From contig CANFHC010000010.1 of assembly GCA_947446575.1 (NCBI GenBank), positions 1 through 64,000 on the forward strand: a stretch of 64,000 bases of DNA, in the 5' to 3' direction. This stretch comes from Bacteriovoracaceae bacterium. Its GTDB lineage: Bacteria > Bdellovibrionota > Bacteriovoracia > Bacteriovoracales > Bacteriovoracaceae. Of this stretch, positions 27,392-47,501 are shown in pieces. Within the stretch, counting starts at the first letter, position 1. Each line of letters starts with the position of its first letter. A model generated the notes under the pieces. That model searched no databases, was not told the origin of the DNA, and was given only the letters and a program-made list of their open reading frames with translations. The position numbers and the translations under genes were made by a program.

Positions 27392-27410
27392 AAAATTGTT
27401 ATCGATATAG

Positions 27411-27439
27411 AAAAATGGCCGAAAAATTCGGCCATTTTT
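27411..27439. terminator. Rho-independent bidirectional terminator
   Basis: AAAAATGGCCGAA (27411-27423) pairs with TTCGGCCATTTTT (27427-27439) around a 3-base loop. The A and T flanks let it serve both the small exported protein gene and the convergent Cys-rich gene. Confidence 0.92.
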
Positions 27440-27457
27440 CATTTAGTTTGAGATAAA

Positions 27458-27866: not shown

Positions 27867-28535
27867 ATGCAAACAGACTCAGATATCCTTGCTGTTGAAG
27901 CAGAAATTTTAAAAGAGCTAACGCACTTTGAAACATTTTTTGGACGCATCGGATTTAAACGCATCGATGGATCAGTGTTTGGTTTATTAGTACTCGCAAA
28001 TAAACCACTCACTTCAGAAGAAATCGAAGCGACTCTCAATCTCTCTCAAAGTGCAGTTTCACTGTCTCTAAAAACGCTTAGCCATTTTGGTGCAATTGAA
28101 ACGAGAGACACTCGCGATCAAAGGGATAATTCAAAAGCAAAAGTTCACACCGCAAAAGAAGATTCACTCAATATCGTGGCCAGCGTTTTTAGAAAACGCG
28201 AAGAAGAATATGTAAACGACTTTAAAAATATGGCGCAAAGAGTTTTAGAAAAATCTGAAGGCTCAGAAAATATTGCCCGAAAAATACGGATGCAATCAAT
28301 CATCACTACTTGTGAAATTGCTGAATCAGTCATGAATTTTGTTATCACTATTGCTCAAAATAAATCCCGCGAAGGACACGAGCACTATGCTGCTCAATAT
28401 GAGGCCTTAGTTAAAAAATTGCCAAAGGCACTAGATCTAATCACCACAACTGCGGGACCTTTGAGCGATATCACTCTAAGTCTAAAAGAAAATCTCACAA
28501 GTGCATTTAAGAATAATTTTAAAGGACTACGTTAA
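27867..28535 (+). CDS. GbsR/MarR-type winged-helix regulator
   Basis: A 222-residue regulator. The winged helix occupies about residues 30-110: GSVFGLLVLANKPLTSEEIE, then LNLSQSAVSLSLKTLSHFGAIE as recognition helix and wing. This order matches the GbsR branch of MarR proteins. The C-terminal 110 residues are helical and probably serve dimerisation or ligand sensing. It is the first gene of the operon and its stop overlaps the ketosynthase start by one base (TAATG). It is therefore likely to control the operon, perhaps in response to an acyl or choline-like ligand; the ligand is a guess. AGGA lies 9 bases before the ATG. Confidence 0.82.
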   Translation: MQTDSDILAVEAEILKELTHFETFFGRIGFKRIDGSVFGLLVLANKPLTSEEIEATLNLSQSAVSLSLKTLSHFGAIETRDTRDQRDNSKAKVHTAKEDSLNIVASVFRKREEEYVNDFKNMAQRVLEKSEGSENIARKIRMQSIITTCEIAESVMNFVITIAQNKSREGHEHYAAQYEALVKKLPKALDLITTTAGPLSDITLSLKENLTSAFKNNFKGLR

Positions 28536-29782
28536 TGAAAGCAGACAATCAAAGAATCGTAATCACTGGAATTGGATTAACAAGCCCAATGGGAAATAAT
28601 TTAGCTGAATTCCGTGATGGACTCCTCAATAATGGTTCTGGAATTTCACATACTGAAATTCGTCATATGGGCGTTGTAGCAGCAGGTCTTTGTAAATTTG
28701 ATGAAACAAAATACCAACCAAAAAAGATGAGAAAACGTGGCACTCGTGCAGGAGCGATTTCGATTTATTGCACGAATGAAGCGATCAATGATTCTGGAAT
28801 TAATTTTCAAAGTATTGATAAAAATCGTGTAGGTGTTTATTTAGGAATTACTGAACACGGAAGTGTTGAAACAGAAAATGAAATTCACGATCTTTATAAC
28901 TCCCATAAGATGGACGTAAGTTTTTGGTCTCATCATCACAATCCAAGAACTGTTGCTAATAATCCTGCCGGCGAAGTTACACTTAATTTAGGTATCACTG
29001 GACCTCATTATACGATTGGTGCAGCTTGTGCTGCAGGAAATTTAGGAATAATTCAAGGTGTACAGCAACTTTTATTAGATGAAGTTGATTTTGCTTTGGC
29101 AGGAGGAATTTCTGAATCGACAGAAACTTTTGGAATTTTTGCAGCCTTTAAAGCACAGGGAGCTTTAGGTCATCATGAAGATCCAACTCTAGCCACAAGA
29201 CCCTTGGATATTAATCGCAATGGAATTGTTGTCTCTGAAGGCGGATCGGTTTATGTGTTGGAGAGACTTTCGGACGCGAAAAAACGACACGCTAAAATTT
29301 ACGGCGAAATAATTGGATACCACTCTAATAGTGATGCTTCAGATTTTGTTCTTCCCAACACAGAACGCCAAATTGAATGTATGAAGATGGCGATAAAAAA
29401 AGCTGGTATCGATATTAATGAAATTGATATCGTTAATATGCACGCCACTGGGACAACTCAAGGTGATATCCAAGAGTGCCAAGCGGTTGAAGGTCTATTT
29501 GGTCCTCACAAAAATGTTCATGTAAATGCAACTAAAGGTTTTATCGGACATGCTATGGGAGCTGCCGGAGCATTAGAATTAGCAGGAAATATTCCTTCTT
29601 TCAACGACGGCTATATTCACCCTTGTAAAAAAATCGAAAACCTTGATCCACAATGTGCGATCAGTGGATTAGTTAATGGTGAGAAAATCGCACATGACGT
29701 AAAAATAATTCTTAATAATTCATTTGGGATGTTGGGAATAAATTCAACTTTAATTGTACAAAAATATAGCCCGAAAATATAA
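28535..29782 (+). CDS. FabF-like beta-ketoacyl-ACP synthase
   Basis: A decarboxylating ketosynthase that extends an acyl chain with malonyl-ACP. The catalytic triad is intact: Cys165 in GAACAAGN, His303 in NMHATGTTQGD, His339 in FIGHAMGAAGALE. Its 415 residues match FabF. The sequence around the active site differs from housekeeping FabF (usually NACATG), and the gene is placed between a regulator and a dedicated carrier protein, so it is likely a specialised enzyme. No chain-length-factor partner is present. The gene overlaps the regulator by one base and is followed 20 bases later by the ACP. Confidence 0.9.
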   Translation: MKADNQRIVITGIGLTSPMGNNLAEFRDGLLNNGSGISHTEIRHMGVVAAGLCKFDETKYQPKKMRKRGTRAGAISIYCTNEAINDSGINFQSIDKNRVGVYLGITEHGSVETENEIHDLYNSHKMDVSFWSHHHNPRTVANNPAGEVTLNLGITGPHYTIGAACAAGNLGIIQGVQQLLLDEVDFALAGGISESTETFGIFAAFKAQGALGHHEDPTLATRPLDINRNGIVVSEGGSVYVLERLSDAKKRHAKIYGEIIGYHSNSDASDFVLPNTERQIECMKMAIKKAGIDINEIDIVNMHATGTTQGDIQECQAVEGLFGPHKNVHVNATKGFIGHAMGAAGALELAGNIPSFNDGYIHPCKKIENLDPQCAISGLVNGEKIAHDVKIILNNSFGMLGINSTLIVQKYSPKI

Positions 29783-29802: not shown

Positions 29803-30054
29803 ATGCTTAGTAACGAAGAAGTAAGATCAAAAGTATTAGACATCATCGCTGATATCGCACTTGATGACGACGTCACTGGAATTAAAGATGAAGTCTCGCT
29901 AAGAGACCAACTAGATTTAGATTCGATGGATTTCTTAGATATCGTTATGGAATTAAAAAAGCGTCATAAAATTGAAGTGCCTCAAGAAGACTACACTCGA
30001 CTAGCTTCCATGCAATCTTGTGTTGAGTATCTAACACCAAAGTTTAATGCCTAA
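29803..30054 (+). CDS. Acyl carrier protein
   Basis: An 83-residue carrier protein with the phosphopantetheine site at Ser41 in DLDSMDFLDIV, followed by a helix and EVPQEDYTRLASM. The DSMDFL form resembles carrier proteins of polyene, ladderane-candidate and other specialised fatty-acid clusters more than the DSLDTVE of housekeeping AcpP. AAGGAGA precedes the ATG. It lies between the ketosynthase and the FAD enzyme and should carry their acyl intermediates. No phosphopantetheinyl transferase is in the window. Confidence 0.9.
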   Translation: MLSNEEVRSKVLDIIADIALDDDVTGIKDEVSLRDQLDLDSMDFLDIVMELKKRHKIEVPQEDYTRLASMQSCVEYLTPKFNA

Positions 30055-30059
30055 GCCGA

Positions 30060-31454
30060 ATGCAGAAAAAAGTTGATACAATTATCATTGGGGCCGGCAT
30101 GTCGGGACTTGCTGCTGGCATCAGGCTCTCAATGTATAATAAAAAAGTTTTAATTATAGAAAAACACACCATAACTGGTGGACTCAATTCTTATTACGCC
30201 CGCGGAAAAAGAAAATTTGATGTTGGTCTGCATGCTCTCACCAATTTCGTGGGGCCATCTGAGCGCGGAAAACCGTTTAATAAATTGCTGAAGCAACTTC
30301 GAATTCCGTATGAAGAATTTAAGATTCATCCACAGAATTATTCGATGATACAGTTTCCTGAGAAATCGTTGAAGTTTACCAATGAAATAGAGTATTTCAT
30401 TGAAGAAATCTCTCGACAATTTCCTGCAGAGATAGACGGATTCATGAGTCTAATAAATCATATTAAAAATTTTAATGAAGTTGATTTAAGTAATGAAACG
30501 GTCATGGCAAAGGATGTTGTCGCAAATTTTATTAAAAATAAATCATTGATTGAAATGATTTTTTGTCCACTTTTGATTTATGGAAGTGCGTGGGAAAACG
30601 ATATGGATTTCTCGCAATTCGTAATTATGTTTAAAAGTATTTTTTTAGAAGGATTTGGACGCCCTGAAGGTGGTGTTCGTACAATTATTGATTTACTGCT
30701 CAAACGCCTCGAAGTTTGCGGAGGTGAAATTCAATTCAAATCTGAAATCACTCGCATCATCACAAATAATGGAAAAGTTACTGCTGTCGAAATTAACGGC
30801 AAAGACATAATTGAATGCGATTCAATTCTGTCTTCCATGGGTCTACCTGAAACGATGAGTGTCGTTGATCAGGACTTAGAATACTCCCCTCGAGTCGGAA
30901 ATCTCTCTTTTACTGAGAGTATTTTAATCACTGACAAAAAGCCACGTGACCTTGGAATTGATGCCACCATAATTTTTTATAATAATCGCCCGGAATACCA
31001 TTATCTTAAGCCTCAAACTCTTTTTGACAGTGAAAGTGCCGTGGTATGCTTTCCAAATAATTTTTTACATGACGATTTTGATGAAGGTGTTTTAAGAGTC
31101 ACCAATATCGCCAACTTTGATTTATGGAACCAAGAGCTTTTACTCTCTCGCGAAAGTTATCAAGAAAAAAAACTCGACGTATATAATCAGAGTCTGGCCA
31201 TTTTAAAAAAATGCGGAATGAGTTCTGAGTTTAGCGTAAACTTTAAAGATATTTTTACTCCAACGACCATCAAGCGTTATACCAATCATTTTGGTGGAAC
31301 TGTTTATGGATCTATTGATAAGTCTAGAAATGGATCAACCCCAATTTCAGGACTTTATATATGTGGAACTGATCAAGGGTTCTTAGGAATCGTGGGCTCG
31401 ATGCTCTCAGGAATTTCCATGGCCAATCTCCATGTCCTTCAAGGTAGTCTATGA
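30060..31454 (+). CDS. CrtI/retinol-saturase-like FAD oxidoreductase (ole operon)
   Basis: A 464-residue flavoprotein with the N-terminal dinucleotide motif IIIGAGMSGLAAGIRLS (residues 9-25) and TGGLNSYYARGK. The C-terminal motif LYICGTDQGFLGIVGSMLSG is the FAD-contact region typical of phytoene desaturases, carotene isomerases and retinol saturases. There is no carotenoid gene nearby. Its place 5 bases after the ACP and overlapping oleA by 4 bases (ATGA) suggests it desaturates, saturates or isomerises an acyl chain or hydrocarbon in the Ole pathway. CrtI-like genes beside FabF and ACP genes have also been proposed for ladderane synthesis; similarity of layout is not proof of the same product. 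Confidence 0.85.
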   Translation: MQKKVDTIIIGAGMSGLAAGIRLSMYNKKVLIIEKHTITGGLNSYYARGKRKFDVGLHALTNFVGPSERGKPFNKLLKQLRIPYEEFKIHPQNYSMIQFPEKSLKFTNEIEYFIEEISRQFPAEIDGFMSLINHIKNFNEVDLSNETVMAKDVVANFIKNKSLIEMIFCPLLIYGSAWENDMDFSQFVIMFKSIFLEGFGRPEGGVRTIIDLLLKRLEVCGGEIQFKSEITRIITNNGKVTAVEINGKDIIECDSILSSMGLPETMSVVDQDLEYSPRVGNLSFTESILITDKKPRDLGIDATIIFYNNRPEYHYLKPQTLFDSESAVVCFPNNFLHDDFDEGVLRVTNIANFDLWNQELLLSRESYQEKKLDVYNQSLAILKKCGMSSEFSVNFKDIFTPTTIKRYTNHFGGTVYGSIDKSRNGSTPISGLYICGTDQGFLGIVGSMLSGISMANLHVLQGSL

Positions 31455-32485
31455 AATTTAATAATATTGTTATTGAGTCTTTCGCCTATTCACTTTCAGA
31501 TGAAATTATGTCTTCTGATCGAATTGAAAAACGCCTCGCTCCAATATATAAAAAATTGAAACTTCCAGAAGGGAGGTTGGAACTCATGACGGGGATTATC
31601 GCTAGACGAGTTTGGCCTTTAGGAACAAAACCAAGCGATCTTTCAACACAAGCGGCTGAAAAATTATTTTTAAAATCTAAAATAAAAAAAGAAGATGTTG
31701 ATCTTTTAATTCACGCATCTGTCTGTAGAGATTTTCTGGAGCCAGCGACTGCATCTGTTGTACATGCCAATTTGGGACTTTCAAGGAAGGCCATGATTTT
31801 TGATTTATCAAACGCCTGCTTAGGTGTGATAAATGCCATTGTAGTTGCTGGAAATATGATTGAAAATGGGCAGATAAAATCAGCCTTAATTGTCAGTGGA
31901 GAAAATGGTGGTCCGCTATTAGAAAACACCATTAGTGAATTATTAAATAATCCCAAAATCGATAGAAAAAACATTAAAAAATACATCGCTAATTTAACGA
32001 TTGGATCAGCGGCAACTGCTCTATTAATAACTCACAAAAACTTAAGTCCAGATTCTCCACGCATTTTAGGTGGAGCCGTTGAAACAGATTCAAGTGCCAA
32101 TCATCTGTGTCGTGGTGATGGAAACACTCACTCACTAGTAATGGAAACAGATTCAGAAGAACTTTTAAAGTACGGTGTCAATTTAGCAAAATCAACCTGG
32201 CAGGGCCTTCTTCATGAATTAGGCTGGAGTAACGACACTCCTGATTTAGTTCTTACACATCAAGTCGGTACAGCTCATGAAAAATTGTCTTTAGAGTCGC
32301 TAGAATTGACTCATAAAAAAACTTATAAAACTTATCCTTTTTTAGGAAATACCGGATCGAGCGCGTTGCCAATCACTCTAATGATGGCCGCAGAAGATCC
32401 AAATGTTTTAAAAAAAGGTGATTCCATTGCTCTATTGGGAATTGGATCTGGATTAAGCTCAATCATGTTAGGAGTGCAGTGGTGA
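31451..32485 (+). CDS. oleA: OleA, acyl-CoA head-to-head condensing enzyme
   Basis: A thiolase-superfamily enzyme that condenses two fatty acyl-CoAs to a 2-alkyl-3-ketoacid. The match to characterised OleA is close: SVCRDFLEPATASVVHANLG holds Glu97, the OleA-specific residue contributed to the partner subunit. Cys123 lies in DLSNACLGVINA, His270 in THQVGTAHEK, and Asn300 in PFLGNTGSSALP. The C-terminal IALLGIGSGLSSIML also matches. Its 344 residues match. It overlaps the FAD enzyme at the start and oleB at the end, so expression of the cluster is coupled. Confidence 0.95.
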   Translation: MKFNNIVIESFAYSLSDEIMSSDRIEKRLAPIYKKLKLPEGRLELMTGIIARRVWPLGTKPSDLSTQAAEKLFLKSKIKKEDVDLLIHASVCRDFLEPATASVVHANLGLSRKAMIFDLSNACLGVINAIVVAGNMIENGQIKSALIVSGENGGPLLENTISELLNNPKIDRKNIKKYIANLTIGSAATALLITHKNLSPDSPRILGGAVETDSSANHLCRGDGNTHSLVMETDSEELLKYGVNLAKSTWQGLLHELGWSNDTPDLVLTHQVGTAHEKLSLESLELTHKKTYKTYPFLGNTGSSALPITLMMAAEDPNVLKKGDSIALLGIGSGLSSIMLGVQW

Positions 32486-33345
32486 TAACAATTCCAGAAG
32501 AATTAAAAAGCGAATATCCTTTTGAATCGCATTTTTTATCAATTGAAAATAATAATTTACATTATGTCGATGTGGGAACTGGCGAAGTCATTCTGATGTT
32601 GCACGGAAATCCTACCTGGTCGTTTTTCTATCGCAATCTTGCTAAATATTTTTCCGTAAATCATCGAGTAATCGTACCAGATCACATGGGCTGTGGGCTT
32701 TCGAGTAAACCACAAGATTATGAGTACACACTCAAGACACACGTAGATAATATTTGCTTGCTGTCTCAAAAATTAAATTTAACAAATATCACTTTAGTTG
32801 TTCACGATTGGGGTGGGGCCATCGGAATGGGACTGGCCACTCGTTATCCACATTTGATTAAAAAAATGGTTATCATGAATACTGCGGCCTTTAGGTCAAT
32901 TGAAATTCCAGCGCGGATAAATATTTTAAGAAATCCAGTTGGTGAATGGTTCATTAGATCTTTTAATGGTTTTGCTGGGCCCGCAACTATTATGGCCTCT
33001 AAAAAAGGGCTATCTCCATTAGTAAAAAAAGGCTTTATATTGCCATACAATGACTTTAAATCGCGTATCGCAACTGCTAAATTTGTTCAAGATATTCCCA
33101 TGAGCGACACGCATCCAACATATGAAACACTAAAGTTGATTGAAGAAAAACTTCCCACAATCAAAGCTCCAGTCCTTTTACTTTGGGGCGAAAAAGATTT
33201 TTGTTTCACAATGAATTTTCAAAAAAAGTGGCTAGAGATATTTCCAAACGCTCATGCAGTAACTTATCCAAAAGCTGGCCACTACCTTATTGAAGATGAA
33301 AAAAGTGCGGTGATTAACGAAATAGAGAAGTTTTTAAAGGATTAG
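32479..33345 (+). CDS. oleB: OleB, alpha/beta hydrolase (beta-lactone decarboxylase)
   Basis: An alpha/beta-hydrolase of the haloalkane-dehalogenase type; in Ole pathways it decarboxylates the beta-lactone to a cis-olefin. LHGNPTWSFFYRNL gives the oxyanion region, VVHDWGGAIGMGLATRYP the nucleophile Asp110, and the catalytic His is in KAGHYLIED near the C-terminus. Its 288 residues match. The start is a GTG; two adjacent GTG codons (32479 and 32482) are possible, both inside the oleA end. It is a separate gene, not fused to oleC as in some bacteria. Confidence 0.93.
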   Translation: MVITIPEELKSEYPFESHFLSIENNNLHYVDVGTGEVILMLHGNPTWSFFYRNLAKYFSVNHRVIVPDHMGCGLSSKPQDYEYTLKTHVDNICLLSQKLNLTNITLVVHDWGGAIGMGLATRYPHLIKKMVIMNTAAFRSIEIPARINILRNPVGEWFIRSFNGFAGPATIMASKKGLSPLVKKGFILPYNDFKSRIATAKFVQDIPMSDTHPTYETLKLIEEKLPTIKAPVLLLWGEKDFCFTMNFQKKWLEIFPNAHAVTYPKAGHYLIEDEKSAVINEIEKFLKD

Positions 33346-33348
33346 TTT

Positions 33349-34992
33349 GTGAATATTGCCCAAAGGCTAACTAGTAACGCTAAAATATTTCCGGATAAAA
33401 ATGCCGTCGTTTTCCCGAAACTAACTAGTCATGGGAATTATGAGTACACTACACTCACTTTTAAAGAACTGGAAATTCTTTCAAATAAATTTGCTGTTTC
33501 TCTTTCAAAACTCGGATTAAAAAAAGGTGATAAGACGCTTTTATTTTTAAGACCCTCTCTCGATTTCCCGGCCATAACTTTTGCACTTTTTAAATTAGGA
33601 GTCATTCCCATTTTTATTGATCCTGGAATGGGTAAGAAAAATCTTCTTAAATGTATTAAAGAATCAAATCCTGTAGGGCTCATCTCTGAAAAAGAAATTC
33701 ATTTCATAAAATATTTTTATAAAGATACTTTTAAATCGATCAAATTCAATGTGACTACTGGGAAATTTGCTTGGGGAAAAATGAAAACCCTCAAAAAATT
33801 GAAAGAGGAGAAAATTCAAAGTTTAACAACTGCATCATCTGATCCCTCTGATACGGCGGCGATACTTTTTACATCGGGAGGAACAGGAACTCCAAAAGGC
33901 GTGGTCTACTCTCATCAAGTTTTTGAACACCAAACAAATGTTCTTCAAGAACTCTATGGTTTAACCAATAACGATATTGATATGCCTGGTTTTCCGCTGT
34001 TTTCGCTCTTTACAATAGCGATGGGAATGACTAGTTGTATTCCTGATATGGATCCGTCAAAACCTGGAAGATGTGATCCCGAAAAATTAGTACAGAATAT
34101 CAAAGATCAAAGGCCAACATTTGTTGCGGGTTCTCCTGCTATTTGGGAGCGAGTCGCGGACTTTTGCATTGCTCATGAAATCACTTTGCCGAGTATAAAA
34201 TATGTCGTTATGTTTGGGGCCCCTGTCTCAACAAAATTGCATATGAAATTTAAAAATCTTCTTCCTCATGGCACAACTTATACTCCATATGGGGCAACTG
34301 AAGCTCTTCCCGTATCGAGCATTTCTGGTGAATACATTTTAAAACATACTGCTCAACTCTCAGATGATGGGAGAGGGACTTGTGTAGGCAAAGCTGTTCC
34401 TGGTGTTGAAATAAAAATTATAAAAACCTCGAACGATGTTATTGAAAAATTAACTCCCGATTTAATTTTGCCTGCTAATTCAATTGGGGAAATTATTGTG
34501 AGGGGACGAGCTGTCACAAAAGAGTATTTAGATTTGCCAGATAAAACTCGCGAAGCAAAAATCAGTGATGAAAAGAATACGTTCTGGCATCGTATGGGTG
34601 ATGTAGGATTTTTAGACGAAGCGGGTCTTCTATGGTTTTGTGGAAGAAAAACTCATCAAGTCGAAACGATTGATCACTTACTCTACCCCATTCCCTGTGA
34701 GGCTATTTTTAATAAACACCCCGCTGTTAAAAGATCTGCTTTAGTAGGTCTTGGAAAGCCAGGAAATCAAATCCCGGCCATAGTTATTGAAAGAAAAGAT
34801 GGGCAGTATCTTTCAGGTAAAAGTAGATCTATTTTTGAAAGTGAACTAATTGCAGTAGCTAAAAAATATCCCCACACAAAAGAAATTCAAAAAATATACT
34901 TAAGTCGATCATTTCCTGTTGATGTTCGCCACAATATCAAAATTGACCGTCTAAAGTTAAAAGAAGAAATAGAAGCGTATGAAAAAAACTAA
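33349..34992 (+). CDS. oleC: OleC, ATP-dependent beta-lactone synthetase
   Basis: An ANL-superfamily AMP-forming enzyme that closes the beta-hydroxy acid to a beta-lactone. The phosphate-binding loop is LFTSGGTGTPKGVVYSH (about residues 173-189), the adenylate motif TYTPYGATEALPV, and the hinge MGDVGFLDEAGLLWFCGR. VDVRHNIKIDRLKL near the end carries the catalytic Lys. Its 547 residues match OleC. The start is GTG, 3 bases after the oleB stop. The 3' end overlaps oleD by 14 bases. Confidence 0.94.
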   Translation: MNIAQRLTSNAKIFPDKNAVVFPKLTSHGNYEYTTLTFKELEILSNKFAVSLSKLGLKKGDKTLLFLRPSLDFPAITFALFKLGVIPIFIDPGMGKKNLLKCIKESNPVGLISEKEIHFIKYFYKDTFKSIKFNVTTGKFAWGKMKTLKKLKEEKIQSLTTASSDPSDTAAILFTSGGTGTPKGVVYSHQVFEHQTNVLQELYGLTNNDIDMPGFPLFSLFTIAMGMTSCIPDMDPSKPGRCDPEKLVQNIKDQRPTFVAGSPAIWERVADFCIAHEITLPSIKYVVMFGAPVSTKLHMKFKNLLPHGTTYTPYGATEALPVSSISGEYILKHTAQLSDDGRGTCVGKAVPGVEIKIIKTSNDVIEKLTPDLILPANSIGEIIVRGRAVTKEYLDLPDKTREAKISDEKNTFWHRMGDVGFLDEAGLLWFCGRKTHQVETIDHLLYPIPCEAIFNKHPAVKRSALVGLGKPGNQIPAIVIERKDGQYLSGKSRSIFESELIAVAKKYPHTKEIQKIYLSRSFPVDVRHNIKIDRLKLKEEIEAYEKN

Positions 34993-35980
34993 AATCCTCA
35001 TTACTGGAGCTGGTGGATTTCTAGGAAGTGTCATCGCTAAAAAGCTTGCCCTTGATCCTCGTTATGAACTTTATAGTTTTTCTCGATCAACTTATCCCAA
35101 GCTATTGGGCCTTGGTTTAAAAGAATTTATTGGTGATTTAAAAAACAAACAAGACGTGGATCATGCGCTTAAAGATATGGATGCTGTTATTCACACTGCT
35201 TCGATGGTAGGAATGTGGGGGCGTTATGAAGATTTTTATGCCACAAATGTTATTGGGACAAAAAATATAATTAGTGCAATGAAAGAATATAAAATTAAGA
35301 AATTAATTTATACCAGCACTCCAAGTGTAGCTTTTGATCGTGACAGTCTATGTGGAGTTGATGAAAGTACTCCAATCCCTAAATCGTATTTGACTAGTTA
35401 TGCTAAAACTAAAGCAATTGCAGAGAGTCTTGTTCTAGCTGCTAATTCAGATGAGCTATCTAGCATAGCACTTCGCCCTCATTTAATTTTTGGACCAGGA
35501 GATTTAAATCTCGTCCCCAGGGTTATAAAGGCGCAAACAAAAGGTCGTCTTAAAATTATTGGAGATGGTAAAAATTTAGTAGATGTGACTTATGTTGATA
35601 ATGCAGCAGACGCTCATATACTTGCACTAGAAAAATTAGAAAGCACCCACCCTTGTGCGGGAAAAGCCTATTTTTTAGGACAAGGTCCTATAAAATTATG
35701 GGATTTTACCAACGAAATTTTAAAAAGATCGGGGCTTCCTCCTGTGACAAAAAAAATGTCGATCCCCACAGCTTTTGCTATTGGGTTTGTTATTGAATCC
35801 CTGCTTAAGTTATTTCGCATTTATAACGTTCATCCACCGATGACACGGTTTGTGGCCCTCCAGCTGGGAAAATCTCATTATTTCAGCCATCACAACCTAG
35901 AGCATGATTTAGGATTTACGCCTCAGATTTCAATTGAAGAAGGCTTAAATCGCCTTTTTTTACCCTCTGAGTCTATCTAG
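34979..35980 (+). CDS. oleD: OleD, NAD(P)-dependent 2-alkyl-3-ketoacid reductase
   Basis: An extended short-chain dehydrogenase that reduces the OleA product to a beta-hydroxy acid. ILITGAGGFLGSVIAKKL at residues 6-23 binds the cofactor. The catalytic pair is Tyr141 and Lys145 in SYAKTKAIAES. LRPHLIFGPGD and VDVTYVDNAADAHILA are the usual family segments. Its 333 residues match. It is the last gene of the tight operon; the next gene on the strand starts 70 bases on. With oleA, oleB and oleC, the pathway to a long-chain olefin is complete. Confidence 0.94.
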   Translation: MKKTKILITGAGGFLGSVIAKKLALDPRYELYSFSRSTYPKLLGLGLKEFIGDLKNKQDVDHALKDMDAVIHTASMVGMWGRYEDFYATNVIGTKNIISAMKEYKIKKLIYTSTPSVAFDRDSLCGVDESTPIPKSYLTSYAKTKAIAESLVLAANSDELSSIALRPHLIFGPGDLNLVPRVIKAQTKGRLKIIGDGKNLVDVTYVDNAADAHILALEKLESTHPCAGKAYFLGQGPIKLWDFTNEILKRSGLPPVTKKMSIPTAFAIGFVIESLLKLFRIYNVHPPMTRFVALQLGKSHYFSHHNLEHDLGFTPQISIEEGLNRLFLPSESI

Positions 35981-36439: not shown

Positions 36440-38569
36440 TTATTGATCCACAACAATAGAAGACGGAGCTCTTAAGTTTTCTAAGCGCATATAGTGATCG
36501 ACAACGCCCAATCCTTTAAATGCACCTTCATGGAAGCTTGTCGTAAAGTTACGGCCATCGGCTGTCATTGCGTTGAAGTTTCCGTAGAAAAACACGTTCT
36601 GCACTCCAAAGAGATTGTAGTAGTGAACTTTACTATTTGAATTATTGACTATGTTATTCGTTAAATTCTTTAACGACCAAAGAGGAATTTCTACCCAATC
36701 TTCTTTATCTTTAAAAGTCACAAGTGAGAGACAATTTTTTAAAAAAGCGCGTTTTTTTGCAGCTCTAAAAATAAATTTATCTGATTGTTTCTCACAAACA
36801 CTGATCACTTCAGCTGTTATTTTTTCATGAGAGAGGTCTTTAAAATAATTAATATAATCATTTTGCAAAGATCTTCTGCAATTATCGAAAAGATTTCTGA
36901 AATTAAAAAATTTATTTCGAGGGTATTCATCACATAACCCATTAATGTGATCAAAAATAGTTCCTACACTTTGATTATTTAAAAAACGCACACCTTCTGT
37001 ATTAACTTCATAACGGCCAGTAATTAAAAATGGAGCCGTTAAGTACTCACTTTGCACCATGCTTACTGCAAGAGGATCAATACCTGAAAAACGCTCTAGT
37101 AAAAAGACAGCACGGTCGAGGTATTTTTTCCCCATCATACCAGTACTTTTTTTAGTGCTAAATTCTGCCGTAAAAGACATTGAAAGTTTTTGTTCATTGG
37201 CTTTAATACTTAAGTCTTCATGGTTTTCTAATAAATTTTTTTCACTATCGTACTCAATAGTAACTTTCTTAGAATCGCTGGCAAGCTTTGCAGCACTTGC
37301 ATCTGAATTCGTAATAGCGAAGATGACACTCGCAAATAGTCTGGAGGCTAGATCTTCGGTGTATCTAATTTTTTCATAATAATGTCTGTAAAATGTTTTA
37401 ACTCGACCATCTGTTGTTACTTCTATCTGTTGAGTTTTTGAACTTTTTGATCCACCCAATAAAAGAAAATTATATTTATGATCTATGCTTTGAGCGATCT
37501 TTTTTTCTTCAGAAATAACATAAGGAGCAAGGACATCTAAATCCCCTTCTCGGTTTTTTAACAATTGGCTTATTTCCATTTCTACCGGAGATCCTGGTGG
37601 CATTTCTCTTAAACCAAATTGATTAAAGTTCAAATAAATCTTATAACTTTCAGAGAGCTCATACGAAAAATCATATGATAAAAGTGTAATGCGTAAAATT
37701 TTTAGAAAATCTGCCTGAATACCTAGTGATATGCCCGCACTGACTAATTTTGTTTTTTCATACGAGAGATGAACTTCATCCCCCACATCAGTCTTACTTG
37801 GACTAGAGATAACTTCTACGCGGGAGAGTTGTTGAAACTTTGCAAGCACTCCTGCCATTCCGGTAATACCAGTATAAAGCGGAGCTGAAGCAATTCCTCC
37901 GGCCTTAACCGAAATTGAATCTTCTTTAAAGATCATTTCGTTAGTTTGCATATGAGAAATATTATTAAACTGCAAAGCTGCAAATGGCAGGAAGAGTTTT
38001 TCAAAATGAGTTGTTAACCCTTCATTGTAAGAGTTTGCATAATGAACCCAAGTAAAAGTTCTTTTGAAGACTATACCGGCAAAGGCTGCAAGATTATTTT
38101 GAGTGATATCTATAACTTTTTGATCTTTTAAATTTGAAAGTATTTTCGAGGCATCAATGAGAATTGAAAACGTATCTGTAACAATCCAACGTTTATCATC
38201 AAACAAATCAGGAGCTAAATTTCGATTAACACTTACGGCAAAATCTACAAAAGGTTTTTGATAACTAAAACCTATGCTATTGAGACCTCCAGTAACAGTA
38301 CTCGATCCACTTGAGAGAACTCGTGCAGCTTCTCTTTGTCCAATATGTTCATACTCTAAGTTCATCTCGTCTAAGATTTGCTGATAAAGATTATTTTTTG
38401 TCTCAAAGGGGTTGATGGCATTACCCACACCTGTAGCGGTATAGTTTTTCTGCAGAGTTTCAGCATCGGTTACATTCAGATAGCTAAAACTATCCTGTGC
38501 GCTCGCAATGCCAGCAAAACTTAAAGTGATGAGGACGATTAATGAAGCTGGGATTAATTTTATTTTCAT
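36440..38569 (-). CDS. Large exported protein of unknown function (709 aa)
   Basis: Signal peptide at residues 1-24 (LIVLITLSFAGIASA). The rest has long beta-rich stretches (LNSIGFSYQKPFVDFAVSV, SAGISLGIQADFLKILRITLL) and aromatic motifs, and could be a large membrane or surface assembly protein. The C-terminal part has several Cys (CDEYP, CRRS, CEKQ, CLSL) and ends SSIVVDQ, not a barrel terminus. I do not recognise the family. It sits between the ole operon and the fab trio, but on its own transcript. Whether it belongs with lipid export is unknown. Confidence 0.72.
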   Translation of the reverse strand: MKIKLIPASLIVLITLSFAGIASAQDSFSYLNVTDAETLQKNYTATGVGNAINPFETKNNLYQQILDEMNLEYEHIGQREAARVLSSGSSTVTGGLNSIGFSYQKPFVDFAVSVNRNLAPDLFDDKRWIVTDTFSILIDASKILSNLKDQKVIDITQNNLAAFAGIVFKRTFTWVHYANSYNEGLTTHFEKLFLPFAALQFNNISHMQTNEMIFKEDSISVKAGGIASAPLYTGITGMAGVLAKFQQLSRVEVISSPSKTDVGDEVHLSYEKTKLVSAGISLGIQADFLKILRITLLSYDFSYELSESYKIYLNFNQFGLREMPPGSPVEMEISQLLKNREGDLDVLAPYVISEEKKIAQSIDHKYNFLLLGGSKSSKTQQIEVTTDGRVKTFYRHYYEKIRYTEDLASRLFASVIFAITNSDASAAKLASDSKKVTIEYDSEKNLLENHEDLSIKANEQKLSMSFTAEFSTKKSTGMMGKKYLDRAVFLLERFSGIDPLAVSMVQSEYLTAPFLITGRYEVNTEGVRFLNNQSVGTIFDHINGLCDEYPRNKFFNFRNLFDNCRRSLQNDYINYFKDLSHEKITAEVISVCEKQSDKFIFRAAKKRAFLKNCLSLVTFKDKEDWVEIPLWSLKNLTNNIVNNSNSKVHYYNLFGVQNVFFYGNFNAMTADGRNFTTSFHEGAFKGLGVVDHYMRLENLRAPSSIVVDQ

Positions 38570-38724: not shown

Positions 38725-39543
38725 ATGAAAGGAAACAGGCTCATTCTCTTAATTGCATCCATTTTATTACTCACGATTAGCAGTGGACTGCTTTTTTACA
38801 AGAATCTCTTTCTTTTAGAAGGACCTCGCTCAGGTGGGAAAGTGGATTTCGAAGAATTGCGCTATACCGATTTGCAAACTAATACGACTGCTCTGATGAT
38901 GAGAAAAAACTTAAGTACTGAGAGCACTGTATTAACTTCCGAAATTAATCGCATCAAAGAACTTATGAATATAGTGACTGACGTCAATAAAAATTCTACA
39001 GAGCTTGGAGCTTCTCTAAAAAAAATTCAAACTTATTTTGACAAAAAAATAAAAAACTTAGAAAAATTTCAAGTAGGATTAAAAGATTTAAAAAATTCTA
39101 TTGAATCACTCAATCCAACATATAACGAACTGACAAAGAATAATTTAAAATTTGTTGTCGATAAAAAAGATTTCTATCGGGAATGCGTGATCGATGCTCT
39201 TTTTTATGTCGCTTCTACAAGTAAAGAAAATGAAATTCGTCTGCAAGATGACAAAAAAATACTGGCTCAAATTCTAGGATTTGCTACTGCCCCAAATCCC
39301 ATCATTTTAAAGTACTCACATTTAATTGATAAAATTTTACTTCGTGGAAAAGAACTAGATGTTATTACCGATAGTTTAAAAAATGACAGTCCTATTAATA
39401 GTGAAATGATCATTTTAGGAAAGTACTACAAAGAATCCCTTGATTCTAAGGCCCATGACGGTGAGATTTTTTTGACAATGGTCTTTGGAGCGATCGTCCT
39501 ATATCTGTTATGCTTAGTTTTTATTTTTAAAAAACTTAATTAA
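38725..39543 (+). CDS. Membrane protein with two end segments and a periplasmic coiled coil
   Basis: One membrane segment at the N-terminus (LILLIASILLLTISSGLLFY) and one at the C-terminus (FLTMVFGAIVLYLLCLVFIF). Between them, about 220 residues are mostly helical with coiled-coil character (SAT-like repeats of Leu, Lys and Glu, such as IQTYFDKKIKNLEKFQVGLK). The layout resembles chemoreceptor or sensor-kinase ectodomains without a signalling domain. The ATG at 38725 places the basic MKGNR before the first membrane segment. An ATG 48 bases upstream is also possible; neither has a clear ribosome binding site. It converges with fabI, overlapping by 4 bases. Confidence 0.68.
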   Translation: MKGNRLILLIASILLLTISSGLLFYKNLFLLEGPRSGGKVDFEELRYTDLQTNTTALMMRKNLSTESTVLTSEINRIKELMNIVTDVNKNSTELGASLKKIQTYFDKKIKNLEKFQVGLKDLKNSIESLNPTYNELTKNNLKFVVDKKDFYRECVIDALFYVASTSKENEIRLQDDKKILAQILGFATAPNPIILKYSHLIDKILLRGKELDVITDSLKNDSPINSEMIILGKYYKESLDSKAHDGEIFLTMVFGAIVLYLLCLVFIFKKLN

Positions 39544-40337
39544 CTCTGCTTTGAAAAAGCTGAGACAACGTTTTCATCAAAATAATTAGCACTCATTCCA
39601 GCATCAACCAGCATTCCAGTTGCATTAATCCCACTAGAGCTTGGGCTTAAAAGAAAAACAACGGAATTGGCTACTTCTTGAGTTTCAAGGGCCTTTTTTC
39701 TCATGGTTAATTCTTCCGCAAATAAATAATTTTCAATGTAGCCAGGAATTCCAGCTGAAGCTGAAGTTTTAAGTGGCCCCGAACAAACGGCATTAAATCG
39801 CACAGAATTAATCGTTGAGAATGATTTCGCCAAAAAAGCCACTGTCGCATCTAAAGAAGCTTTAATCGGGCCCATATAACCATAGTTAGTTGCTCTTGTA
39901 CTTGAAATAGAAATTGTGACAACTGAAGCAAGTGGTTCAAAACAATCTTTTAATGCATTAGAGAGTGCCACAAGTGAAAATGCAGAGATAGTACTGGCCT
40001 GTAAATAATCTTTTAATTTTGTTTCATGAAAAGGTTTCATACCTTCTGAATAATTGGCAAAAGCTATAGAATGTAAAAAGCCATTTAATTTAATTTTCTC
40101 GTTTTTAAGATTTTCACCAAATGCTTTTATTGCATCTTCATTTTCAACATCCAATAAATAAATTTTTTTCCCTGGAAATAGCTTTTCTACTTTTTCCATT
40201 ATCTCTAAGTTTTGCACAGTAAAAATTACATCTGCTCCATTTTCAACTAAAGTTTTAGCAGAAAAATAGGCAACTGATTTTTTGTTGGCCACACCAGTGA
40301 TTAGAAATGTTTTATTTTCAAAATTTAAGAAACTCAT
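39540..40337 (-). CDS. fabI: Enoyl-ACP reductase, FabI-type, with an atypical active site
   Basis: Reduces enoyl-ACP with NAD(P)H, the last step of each elongation cycle. FLITGVANKKSVAYFSAKTL at the N-terminus and HSIAFANYSEG are FabI hallmarks. Tyr152 and Lys159 in NYGYMGPIKASLDA have the Tyr-x6-Lys spacing of FabI rather than the Tyr-x3-Lys of FabG. The first Tyr of the FabI pair (in SYLG in E. coli) is not seen; the segment reads TISISSTRA. Its 265 residues match. It overlaps fabZ by one base (TAATG) and is the last gene of the trio. Confidence 0.88.
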   Translation of the reverse strand: MSFLNFENKTFLITGVANKKSVAYFSAKTLVENGADVIFTVQNLEIMEKVEKLFPGKKIYLLDVENEDAIKAFGENLKNEKIKLNGFLHSIAFANYSEGMKPFHETKLKDYLQASTISAFSLVALSNALKDCFEPLASVVTISISSTRATNYGYMGPIKASLDATVAFLAKSFSTINSVRFNAVCSGPLKTSASAGIPGYIENYLFAEELTMRKKALETQEVANSVVFLLSPSSSGINATGMLVDAGMSANYFDENVVSAFSKQS

Positions 40338-40744
40338 TAAATGCTCGCAACTGCAAACTCGATTACTAAAACCGTTTTGCCTAAAACTTTTGTTGTACCT
40401 TTCATAAAGTGGGCATTAGAAATTGAATCTGTAAGTTCAACTTCCATTTCTAATAGATCTCCAGGACGGACCATGTTTTTAAATTTGGCATTTTGAACTC
40501 TCGTTACAACTCCTAATCCCCCCCCCTCTCTACCGGCCATTAAAGCAGCACCACTTTGAAAAAGAGCTTCTTGTAAAAGGACTCCTGGCATAACGGGATT
40601 GCCGGGAAAGTGACCTTTAAAAAAATCTTCATCCCCAGTAATTTTTAGTGTTGTTTTAATCGATTTTTCTGAGCGATCAATAATTTTATCAACAAATAAA
40701 AATGGAGGTCTTTGAGGAATGAGTTGAGTTATTGCAGGATACAT
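40337..40744 (-). CDS. fabZ: 3-hydroxyacyl-ACP dehydratase, FabZ-like
   Basis: Dehydrates 3-hydroxyacyl-ACP to enoyl-ACP. The hot-dog motif GHFPGNPVMPGVLLQEAL contains His45 and Glu59 at the expected spacing. IPQRPPFLFVDKII at the N-terminus is the usual FabZ start, and VQNAKFKNMVRPGDLLEMEV the later strand. Its 135 residues match. It starts immediately after fabG and overlaps fabI by one base, so the three are translated as a unit. Confidence 0.93.
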   Translation of the reverse strand: MYPAITQLIPQRPPFLFVDKIIDRSEKSIKTTLKITGDEDFFKGHFPGNPVMPGVLLQEALFQSGAALMAGREGGGLGVVTRVQNAKFKNMVRPGDLLEMEVELTDSISNAHFMKGTTKVLGKTVLVIEFAVASI

Positions 40745-41476
40745 TTAGAGGCCTCCAGAAATTTCTAGACACGCTCCAGTGATATAACTTGCTTCTCTAC
40801 TAGATAAAAATAAAACAGCAGCTGCCACCTCTTCAACTTTTCCAAATCGTTTCATAGGTACATCTTTCATGTATTCTTTTCTCTGTTCTTCTGGAAGATC
40901 GGCTAGAAGTTCAGTATCAATAAATCCCGGCAGAACGTTATTGACAGTTATACCGCGCTTAGCGACTTCTTTTGATAACGTTTTAGAAATTGCAATTTGA
41001 CCTGCTTTAGAAGCTGCGTAATTTGCCTGTCCTGGAAGACCTAAAGATCCACCAATTGATGACATATTTACAATTCTTCCATAACGATTTGACATGAATT
41101 TTAATACAGCGTGTTTACTCATAAGAAATGTTCCTGTGAGATTGGTGCTAATAACATCATTCCAATCATGCAGAGTCATCATTGCTGTTACTTGATCTTT
41201 TCTTATTCCTGAATTATTTACCAGAATTTCTAATTTTGGATGAGTTAATTCTAATTCTTTAAAAAATTCAATAATAGCTTCTTCGTTTCGAACATCACAT
41301 TTTTTAACTGAAAGCAGTGGAGAATTTATTTCTTCGTAAAATTTCGAGGCAGCAGCGTCGTTGCCGGCATATGTTGCAATTACAGTAGCTCCTTCTTTTA
41401 AAAAAGCTTCAGCGATCCCTCGTCCAATTCCACGAGTTCCGCCTGTTACTATTACGGTTTGATTTTCAAATTTCAT
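40745..41476 (-). CDS. fabG: 3-oxoacyl-ACP reductase, FabG
   Basis: Reduces 3-oxoacyl-ACP with NADPH. VIVTGGTRGIGRGIAEAF at residues 8-25 binds the cofactor, LVNNSGIRKD is the structural motif, and Ser140, Tyr153 and Lys157 (YAASK) form the catalytic set. ITGACLEISGG is the family end. The start at 41476 has AAGAGG 6 bases upstream; a longer frame starting 96 bases earlier adds residues foreign to FabG. Length is 243. It is the first gene of the fabG-fabZ-fabI operon, which together covers every reduction and dehydration step of fatty-acid elongation. Confidence 0.94.
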   Translation of the reverse strand: MKFENQTVIVTGGTRGIGRGIAEAFLKEGATVIATYAGNDAAASKFYEEINSPLLSVKKCDVRNEEAIIEFFKELELTHPKLEILVNNSGIRKDQVTAMMTLHDWNDVISTNLTGTFLMSKHAVLKFMSNRYGRIVNMSSIGGSLGLPGQANYAASKAGQIAISKTLSKEVAKRGITVNNVLPGFIDTELLADLPEEQRKEYMKDVPMKRFGKVEEVAAAVLFLSSREASYITGACLEISGGL

Positions 41477-41611
41477 AAATCCTCTTAAAAAATTCATTTG
41501 ATAAAAACTTTCTGACAAAATTAAAGTGATTTTAACTAAGGGCAGGTCGTTTGAGAAGAGAATTGAGTACATTTGTTCTGTGTCATGTAATCTTATCTAA
41601 GATAATTTGCT

Positions 41612-46061: not shown

Positions 46062-47501
46062 TTAAATTTTTTCTAATCGACTTAGATAATTGTCTACTTC
46101 GTGGGCCTGTATCACCCCGTAATTAGCCGCCCCTAACCATCCAGACATAATTATGCCAACAGAACCCGCGTGAAAGAGTCCATCAATTTCTTTATGCAAA
46201 TTCATTGATACATCAAGGCCTTCAAACTTTGTTCCAAATGAAGCTCCCCTTTCATGCAGAGTATAGCGCTGAACTGTTAGTGGAGTGGCCGCATCGACAT
46301 AGTCGATTTTTGATCTTACACCTGGAATAATTTTTTCAAGTCCCGTGATCGCGCGTTCAATGAGGTGTTGTTTTTGTTTTTCATATTCATCCTCTGAGAG
46401 ATTTATCCAATCTTCATAACGAGCATTTGAAGAAGAAACAATTGCGTATTGAGGATCAAGATGAGGACGAGTATCGGGATAATAAACAGAGAAAGTTTGG
46501 CTTCCCACTTTGGGAGATAAAATTAAATCAGTAGAAAATTTCGAGTCTTCACTGGTAAAGACAAGGTCTCCAACAAACGGAATACTCTCGCCTGTTTTTA
46601 TACCCATATAGACCTGACAAGAAGACGTGTTTAGCCTTACAGCTTGGGCCTTTTTTATATAGTCAGATGAGAAGTGCTCAGGGCCTACCATTTTATTTAT
46701 TGTCGATAATATATTTGAATTAGAGACCACTGATTTAGATTTAATAGTGTGTCCTTTAACGACAACCCCACTAACTTTTTTATCTGTAATTTCTATTTTT
46801 GAGACTTGAGCTTGCATTTGAATATCGACACCATTTTTAATGAGCTCATCTCTCATCATGGTAATCATGGTGTCTGTTCCACCTTGAAAAATATAAACAC
46901 CTTTACTCATGAAATTTGAAAATACAATCCCATAAGAAATGGCCGGATCTTCTAAGTTTGATCCATTGGCATAAACAATCGGCTCTAATAAAAATCGAGT
47001 TATATCATTTCTGCCGGGAAAAAATTTTTCAAACAACTCTCCGTTAGTCATTTGAGAATTATCATAAAAATTCATATGCGCTAGTTCATTAAAAAAAGCA
47101 TCTACGGTCTCGATTGGAACGCTGAATTTTTCGTTGAGAACTTTGATAAAATGCTCTTTTGTAAAATCAGTTTCTACTTCAAATTGTGGATTAATATATC
47201 GAACTGATTTTAATTGGTGAATGCGTTCAGCGATTTCACGACTCCAGTATTTTCTGCAAGTCTTAATCATTCCGACTGGAAACCCATGGAGAGACACATC
47301 AAAAATATGCTGAGTATTACCCTCTTTTTGAGCGCGCTTAAACCAAGTGGCAAATCCGCCGAGTTTATTATGAGACTCAAGGAGCAAAACTGAGCGGCCA
47401 TCGCGTCCCATTTTATTAGCGAGAGTCATCCCGGCCAGGCCCGCTCCTACGACAATGACGTCATAGGATTTAGAAATTTTGTCTTTTGATGAGTAAATCA
47501 T
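46062..47501 (-). CDS. Second CrtI/carotene-isomerase-like FAD oxidoreductase
   Basis: A 479-residue flavoprotein with VIVVGAGLAGMTLANKMG (about residues 15-32) and LLLESHNKLGGFATWF. The C-terminal SGWLGAANYGVIQAH region is the flavin contact of the CrtI/retinol-saturase group. It differs clearly from the ole-operon enzyme at 30060. The next gene upstream ends 6 bases away, and the set 50296 to 46062 reads as one operon. The substrate is unknown; no carotenoid synthase is present in this window. Confidence 0.82.
   Translation of the reverse strand: MIYSSKDKISKSYDVIVVGAGLAGMTLANKMGRDGRSVLLLESHNKLGGFATWFKRAQKEGNTQHIFDVSLHGFPVGMIKTCRKYWSREIAERIHQLKSVRYINPQFEVETDFTKEHFIKVLNEKFSVPIETVDAFFNELAHMNFYDNSQMTNGELFEKFFPGRNDITRFLLEPIVYANGSNLEDPAISYGIVFSNFMSKGVYIFQGGTDTMITMMRDELIKNGVDIQMQAQVSKIEITDKKVSGVVVKGHTIKSKSVVSNSNILSTINKMVGPEHFSSDYIKKAQAVRLNTSSCQVYMGIKTGESIPFVGDLVFTSEDSKFSTDLILSPKVGSQTFSVYYPDTRPHLDPQYAIVSSSNARYEDWINLSEDEYEKQKQHLIERAITGLEKIIPGVRSKIDYVDAATPLTVQRYTLHERGASFGTKFEGLDVSMNLHKEIDGLFHAGSVGIIMSGWLGAANYGVIQAHEVDNYLSRLEKI

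Follow-up and report, generated by a model that had tools for sequence, protein, structure and literature searches.

Gene content of the locus

The window (the whole 64 000 nt stretch of Bacteriovoracaceae DNA analyzed here) carries an operon of eight genes lying head to tail between 27867 and 35980, in the order regulator-KAS-ACP-CRT1-oleA-oleB-oleC-oleD, with distances between neighbors of −14 to +20 bases. The gene of interest, designated CRT1, is an ORF at 30060–31454 on the forward strand that starts with ATG and encodes 464 amino acids; its product has the GxGxxG FAD motif and resembles CrtI and CrtISO. CRT1 starts 5 bases past the end of the acyl carrier protein (ACP) gene and overlaps the start of oleA (31451) by 4 bases. 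The first-pass annotation of this DNA, made from the letters alone, had described a CrtI-like flavoenzyme between an ACP and OleA with the same gap and overlap, and both the gene and its placement are confirmed. The operon consists of the following features:

27867–28535, forward strand: HTH regulator of TrmB/ArsR-like type, 222 aa, opening the operon (PF01978, 24.8 bits, just below the cut-off)
28535–29782, forward strand: KAS, FabF-like ketosynthase with Cys-His-His motifs (PF00109/PF02801; ACAAG, HATGT and GHAMGA)
29803–30054, forward strand: acyl carrier protein (PF00550, above the cut-off; DSMD motif)
30060–31454, forward strand: CRT1, CrtI-fold FAD enzyme (FAD motif, family scores and predicted fold)
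31451–32485, forward strand: OleA (NF006720, 414.2 bits, cut-off 285)
32479–33345, forward strand: OleB, alpha/beta hydrolase of the haloalkane-dehalogenase type (PF00561; HDWG motif; operon position)
33349–34992, forward strand: OleC, AMP-binding, beta-lactone synthetase type (NF006754, 625.7 bits, cut-off 478)
34979–35980, forward strand: OleD, 2-alkyl-3-oxoalkanoate reductase type (NF042423, 344.4 bits, below the cut-off of 580)

All four ole genes are present in the window. OleA and OleC pass the general cut-offs; against the two lineage-bound equivalog models OleC scores under the cut-off (505.4 versus 850 for NF045785 and 464.3 versus 900 for the second model). A long stem-loop is located upstream of the operon (27410–27440), and a scan of 27–42 kb for promoters and terminators gave counts that did not exceed those in shuffled sequences (54 versus 50.3 and 11 versus 10.3, respectively). 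The reverse strand at 36440–38569 encodes a 709-residue protein with no Pfam or NCBIfam match; it recurs downstream of oleD in many family loci.

About 3.6 kb past the operon, on the opposite strand, lie FabI-, FabZ- and FabG-like genes (39540–41572), and a second CrtI-fold gene, designated CRT2, is present on the same strand:

39540–40337, reverse strand: FabI-like enoyl-ACP reductase (PF13561; Y..M...K motif; solved FabI relatives)
40337–40744, reverse strand: FabZ dehydratase (NF000582, 113.4 bits, cut-off 113; GHFPG and PGVLLQEA motifs)
40745–41572, reverse strand: FabG-like ketoreductase (NF009466, 259.4 bits, cut-off 222; YAASK motif)
46062–47501, reverse strand: CRT2, second CrtI-fold FAD enzyme and partner of CRT1 (24% identity to CRT1; own clade)

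FabI models score up to 162 bits with the FabI-like gene, all under their cut-offs, and the FabG-like gene stays below the cut-off of TIGR01830 (272.6 bits, cut-off 297.75). Among solved structures, FabZ is closest to 7qv0, 8ayc and 8ayb, annotated as beta-hydroxyacyl-ACP dehydratases and presumably from anammox bacteria. The CRT1-ACP-oleA grouping of the first-pass annotation stands; it had overlooked CRT2 and the remaining FAS genes (fabG-fabZ-fabI), which have to be added. Since another fabG-acp-fabF cluster exists in this genome (contig C25, L313:373-2742), with a KAS 33–35% identical to that of the window, we read the FAS set of the window as a second, dedicated one. The genome also encodes a third, very divergent CrtI-fold protein (L003:1492-2937), which forms a long branch in the tree described below.

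Conservation of gene order

We searched 57 genomes, the window's own included; 35 of them belong to the window's family, and 30 of these 35 have CRT1. The order KAS-ACP-CRT1 is kept in 27 of 29 family loci, the other two ending at a contig edge, and oleA directly follows CRT1 at the 3′ side in 28 of the 29. The exception is genome G016 (L320:4327-9371), where the order is KAS-ACP-CRT1-oleB-oleC-oleD with oleA absent from its usual place; its CRT1 is the most divergent in the family (35–36% identical). In most family loci that are long enough, FabI-FabZ-FabG-CRT2 lie a few kilobases downstream on the opposite strand, and in one locus (L048) this set immediately follows oleD and shares its strand.

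We scanned GTDB genomes for CRT1 and obtained 190 relatives, the best 80 of which were examined: 67 loci were of the Bacteriovoracia type and 13 were others, including Planctomycetota and Lentisphaera. Among these best 80, oleA adjoins CRT1 in 66 of the 67 Bacteriovoracia-type loci (in the remaining one, L115, the sequence stops 354 bases past CRT1), and the 13 other loci contain an ACP in 12 cases, a KAS in 11 and CRT2 after CRT1 in 10; no anammox or Desulfotalea records occur among the best 80 of 190 matches. The 29-locus and 80-locus sets share genomes and are not summed. Instances of the gene set come from Bdellovibrionota, Planctomycetota and Lentisphaerota; in the planctomycete G092 (L197) KAS-ACP-CRT1-CRT2-FabG-FabZ-FabI-OleA-OleB-OleC are all encoded on one strand. 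Of 20 planctomycete loci, seven have a homologue of the regulator immediately upstream of KAS (34–40% identity).

All-against-all clustering of the planctomycete loci was swamped by antisense frames of the G+C-rich DNA. A Pfam search for further shared genes with 10 proteins from three planctomycete loci revealed one phosphopantetheinyl transferase, one YgiQ-type radical SAM protein and none common to the loci. The transferase gene (PF01648; L147:12507-13097) comes straight after FabI in a planctomycete CRT cluster, and the radical SAM gene (L197:686-2389) straight after oleC at the end of a planctomycete operon. An Aureispira anguillae plasmid encodes a CrtI-like protein 25% identical to CRT1 (L309:3882-5405), immediately past an MMPL transporter/acyltransferase/methyltransferase and two genes before one for an AMP-binding protein; this is perhaps another lipid use of the fold.

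CRT1 and carotenoid enzymes

A CrtI-like protein might be a carotenoid desaturase or isomerase that sits in the ole operon by happenstance. What speaks for this is family resemblance only. The best NCBIfam match of CRT1 is the carotenoid isomerase model TIGR02730, with 90.6 bits against a cut-off of 586.9; the other carotenoid models fail as well (60.5 against 549.7 for TIGR02733 and 51.3 against 238.1 for TIGR02734), and identity to CrtI relatives is about 20–25%. The first-pass annotation had seen no phytoene synthase (PSY) in the window, and this observation extends to the whole genome (G000, 95.5% complete): a search for PF00494 (phytoene/squalene synthase) gave 0 matches there, with 7 of 14 control genomes positive.

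Among the 30 CRT1-bearing genomes of the family, 25 have no PF00494 match. The five that do (G012, G016, G021, G022 and G027) carry a different CrtI within about 2 kb of PSY, at a separate locus and with 25–27% identity over the matched part, so that genomes with real carotenoid genes have CRT1 in addition to the CrtI that stands beside PSY. In eight genomes reached via CRT1 loci of other phyla (one a Smithella-labelled MAG), the PSY family is absent from six. Two genomes of another family of the same phylum (G036 and G044) have 813-residue frames with a CrtI-like part and a phytoene-synthase match (L284:4643-7081 and L285:4789-7227), likely CrtI-PSY fusions judging from their domain matches.

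We built a tree of 68 rows, with CRT rows picked at even steps from the 159 extracted and references added; carotenoid CrtI is represented by 12 sequences (10 adjoining PSY, together with those of Pantoea and Acinetobacter), and CrtISO and RetSat were left out. CRT1 (31 sequences), CRT2 (19) and carotenoid CrtI (12) form three separate clades with support values of 98, 100 and 100; the branches are long, and the branching order among the three clades is not readable. A phylogeny had been named beforehand as the check on the first-pass annotation, and in this one, which is without CrtISO and RetSat, CRT1 does not fall among true carotenoid desaturases. The statement that no carotenoid genes lie nearby needs one correction: a second CrtI-fold gene, CRT2, is in the window after all, but it has its own clade and is not a carotenoid gene either.

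On the model scores, the lack of PSY in the genome and the clade separate from CrtI, we reject a carotenoid role of CRT1, and we regard the chance placement of a carotenoid enzyme in the operon as extremely improbable.

Co-occurrence of CRT1, CRT2 and oleC

To examine co-occurrence, we used a single fixed draw of 246 genomes from Planctomycetota. Of these, 51 have CRT1, and exactly the same 51 have CRT2. An oleC match (E-value ≤1e-60) was found in 92 genomes, including all 51 with CRT1, for which the hypergeometric value, calculated with kinship ignored, is 1e-27. In 50 of the 51, oleC scores over the curated cut-off, and in the remaining one (G300) the gene is broken by a contig end. The genes are frequently unlinked: the distance between CRT1 and oleC is <20 kb in 23 of the 51 genomes, in 20 they are on different contigs and in eight they are >200 kb apart on one contig; for CRT1 and CRT2 the corresponding numbers are 35, 14 and 2.

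In the window's family, an oleC match accompanies CRT1 in 30 of 30 genomes. CRT2 was sought in 13 genomes with CRT1. For 12 of these, including three Lentisphaerota, the CRT1 flank had shown none, and every one of the 12 turned out to have CRT2; earlier hints of it existed for two of them, G016 and L128 (the latter resembling G022). In the thirteenth genome (G060) CRT2 was visible in the CRT1 flank from the start. One genome (G007, L316:9913-12071) has CRT2 and FabG without CRT1 or oleC; since its contig stops ∼1.6 kb past FabG, gene loss and an assembly gap are indistinguishable there.

The synteny in the 29 and 80 loci and the co-occurrence without linkage rule out a chance neighborhood. CRT1 seems to be part of a gene set that builds a special fatty chain for bacterial olefin synthesis, with CRT2 as its companion in nearly all cases.

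The flavoenzymes could also act after OleABCD, isomerizing, reducing or desaturating the long olefin: CRT1 adjoins oleA in the window's family, it is always accompanied by oleC in the sampled planctomycetes, and the fold suits a long lipophilic chain. Yet the steady neighbors in Planctomycetota are KAS, ACP and FabZ/FabI, with ole often unlinked, and plain ole operons without CRT1 and CRT2 exist (in G037 and G045), which makes action on the olefin quite improbable in our judgment. As CRT1 and CRT2 travel with KAS, ACP, FabZ and FabI even where ole is elsewhere, we favor the ACP-bound acyl chain as the substrate. The first-pass annotation had suggested action on an acyl chain or on the final olefin; a non-carotenoid role of CRT1 in an acyl or olefin pathway is well supported, and within it the acyl chain is our preference only.

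The CRT pair and Pfa as partners of Ole

The marker of PUFA synthase, pfaD, was found in 38 of the 246 Planctomycetota. Where oleC scores over the cut-off (88 planctomycetes), CRT1/CRT2 occur without pfaD in 49 genomes and pfaD without CRT1/CRT2 in 36; one genome has both (Pan216, G057) and two have neither (G140 and G205); pfaD without oleC occurs in one planctomycete genome. Given this split, almost all ole pathways in the planctomycetes come with either of two sources of the chain.

An oleC tree comprising 80 of the 88 planctomycete sequences (those of G154, G289, G276, G079, G253, G132, G198 and G156 are missing) and that of the window was used to look for switches between Pfa and CRT that arose independently. 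The CRT and PFA states need one change only. The pattern is therefore one old split, kept since, and not the result of many exchanges, and for the same reason the Fisher value for CRT/Pfa exclusivity is overstated. OleC of the window sits within the CRT-type side of this tree.

The TIGR02814 model of PfaD matched in none of the 57 genomes (the window's and 56 relatives). Two of the relatives, G037 and G045, have plain oleABCD without a CRT1 ortholog; the expectation that these ole-positive, CRT1-negative genomes would have pfaD failed. The CRT-or-Pfa rule is hence not valid outside Planctomycetota, and Ole also works with neither partner, given these two genomes.

The split bears on what the module makes. 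Its product might be something other than a skipped polyene, such as a chain that has been saturated or quality-controlled in a RetSat-like step, or one that is conjugated and pigment-like, and the CrtISO-like score of CRT1 (90.6 bits with TIGR02730) hints weakly at an isomerase or saturase type. We regard such a product as improbable: the CRT pair replaces Pfa as the partner of Ole in planctomycetes, and Pfa together with Ole gives C31:9 in Shewanella, Geobacter bemidjiensis being another organism that has both and produces this hydrocarbon (PMC6463001, PMC3098273 and PMC4882568, in the text available).

Structure models

The structure model of CRT1 (pLDDT 88.6) has an FAD-binding, amine-oxidase-like fold, and its nearest solved structures are carotenoid desaturases: the gamma-carotene desaturase 4rep (Z 31.5, rmsd 3.3, 432 residues aligned) is the best match, and 4dgk has Z 25.3. 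The model of CRT2 (pLDDT 83.5) matches 4rep with the same Z of 31.5 (rmsd 3.1, 435 residues aligned). The polyunsaturated fatty acid isomerase of P. acnes, 2b9w, has the same flavoenzyme fold (Z 22.5 for CRT1, with rmsd 3.9 over 385 residues, and 22.6 for CRT2). Its identity to CRT1 is ∼11% and its Z lies in the range of the surrounding amine oxidases, so kinship is claimed at the level of the superfamily only. As modeled, the fold matches fit a long lipophilic substrate and are compatible with both a desaturase and an isomerase.

CRT1 and CRT2 might be true desaturases working as CrtI does with phytoene, abstracting a hydride from acyl-ACP or acyl-CoA that is saturated or mono-unsaturated, with a quinone or oxygen receiving the electrons. 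The top fold matches, 4rep and 4dgk, are desaturases, and Rattray et al. 2009 proposed such a reaction for the anammox and Desulfotalea clusters (PMC2649909, in the text available). The same source describes the first double bond in a saturated chain as hard for such enzymes (PMC2649909), and the gene set has a full KR/DH/ER cycle, which could keep and move double bonds without an oxidant. We consider this variant of the acyl-ACP reading unlikely, while giving it real weight.

Proposed function

We propose, with a probability of roughly 60%, that CRT1 and CRT2 are a flavoenzyme pair in a dedicated FAS-II system and set the double bonds of acyl-ACP for OleABCD, the end products probably being C31:9-type polyenes. 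At the level of sequence, this reading rests on the genes present, their repeated occurrence across three phyla and, in the sampled planctomycetes, the strict pairing of CRT1, CRT2 and oleC and the split with Pfa. That the substrate is an acyl- or enoyl-ACP and that the chain becomes polyunsaturated is our inference, and the exact chemistry given below is likewise conjectural.

By analogy with Pfa, KAS, FabG, FabZ and FabI would extend a chain on the operon's dedicated ACP, and CRT1 and CRT2 together would place double bonds in the ACP-bound chain. OleA would receive the finished, probably polyunsaturated chain and join it head to head to another one, and OleC, OleD and OleB would turn the joined chains into a long-chain polyene hydrocarbon. 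The most likely product would be of the C31:9/C31:8 kind, made from 16:4 and 16:3 chains. The CRT module would then serve Ole in the way the giant PUFA synthase Pfa does in Shewanella.

From the biochemistry of PUFA synthases, a skipped cis-polyene needs two double-bond moves, trans-2 to cis-3 and trans-2 to cis-2. Because FabZ and FabI complete the cycle and two moves match two flavoenzymes, we slightly prefer a redox-neutral isomerization at the enoyl-ACP stage over direct desaturation.

In a wider form, which we hold only tentatively, FAS-II with two CrtI-descended acyl-ACP isomerases or desaturases may make up a second, Pfa-independent route to polyunsaturated chains with skipped cis bonds that works without front-end desaturases; coupled to OleABCD, it might be how predatory Bacteriovoracia, Lentisphaerota and many planctomycetes obtain C31:9-type hydrocarbons, and relatives of the pair might supply the polyene step to ladderanes.

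If true, the proposal would name enzymes for a polyunsaturated-chain pathway without Pfa and explain how pfa-free bacteria could make C31:9-type hydrocarbons. The gene set is small and would be testable in culturable strains and in E. coli. The ladderane question would gain a tractable relative as well, since ladderane clusters carry CrtI-like genes without a known reaction, two of whose products gave no lycopene in E. coli (PMC4790861, in the text available).

Comparison with known systems

The idea of acyl desaturation by CrtI-like enzymes is not new: it was put forward for other clusters by Rattray et al. 2009, who, in the available text of that paper, describe two phytoene-desaturase-like genes in anammox FAS-II clusters (kuste3336 and kuste3607) and three in Desulfotalea psychrophila (DP1860, DP2405 and DP2406, the last two being consecutive locus tags) and propose their products as acyl desaturases (PMC2649909). 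Desulfotalea makes C31:8 and C31:9 hydrocarbons and, according to the same text, encodes no other known PUFA route (PMC2649909). When tested by Javidpour et al. 2016, the two anammox CrtI-like proteins did not produce lycopene in E. coli (PMC4790861, in the text available).

By their published description, the anammox and Desulfotalea clusters resemble the window in combining an extra KAS, an ACP and FabZ/FabG with CrtI-like flavoenzymes. They differ in carrying radical SAM enzymes (PMC2649909, available text), which the window's set is without; none was found among the Pfam-searched proteins of 27.9–38.6 and 38.7–50.3 kb. A further difference is that CRT1 lies inside an ole operon, whereas ole genes go unmentioned for those clusters in the available text of PMC2649909 (0 occurrences of ‘olea’). 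In open-licence papers, we found by title and abstract no report on CrtI-like genes in ole operons and no printed description of the strict CRT1/CRT2 pair, its spread over three phyla or its complementarity with Pfa.

The carotenoid enzymes CrtI, CrtD and CrtISO have the fold and the FAD motif in common with CRT1; they are set apart by its scores far under the curated cut-offs, a clade separate from that of CrtI and the absence of PSY. Plain oleABCD operons have the four genes in the order ABCD, as does the window, but the stretches in G037 and G045 are without the KAS, ACP and CRT genes that the window has.

A functional parallel would be Pfa. The co-occurrence of pfa and ole was described by Shulse and Allen 2011 (PMC3098273), type I pfa being present also in Geobacter and in a planctomycete (PMC3098273, PMC6463001 and PMC4882568), and Pfa with OleABCD gives hentriacontanonaene (C31:9), for which an origin from two 16:4 n-3 chains is assumed (PMC4882568 and PMC6463001); all these statements follow the text available for the papers. 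The link between Pfa and Ole in Shewanella was shown by mutants (PMC6463001, available text), and that between CRT and Ole is proposed here from gene content and order. Like Pfa, the CRT module would feed a special chain to OleABCD, from a position linked or unlinked to ole. As pfaE accompanies pfa, so a phosphopantetheinyl transferase gene follows FabI in L147. The difference is in construction: Pfa consists of megasynthases, and the CRT module of discrete FAS-II proteins with two flavoenzymes.
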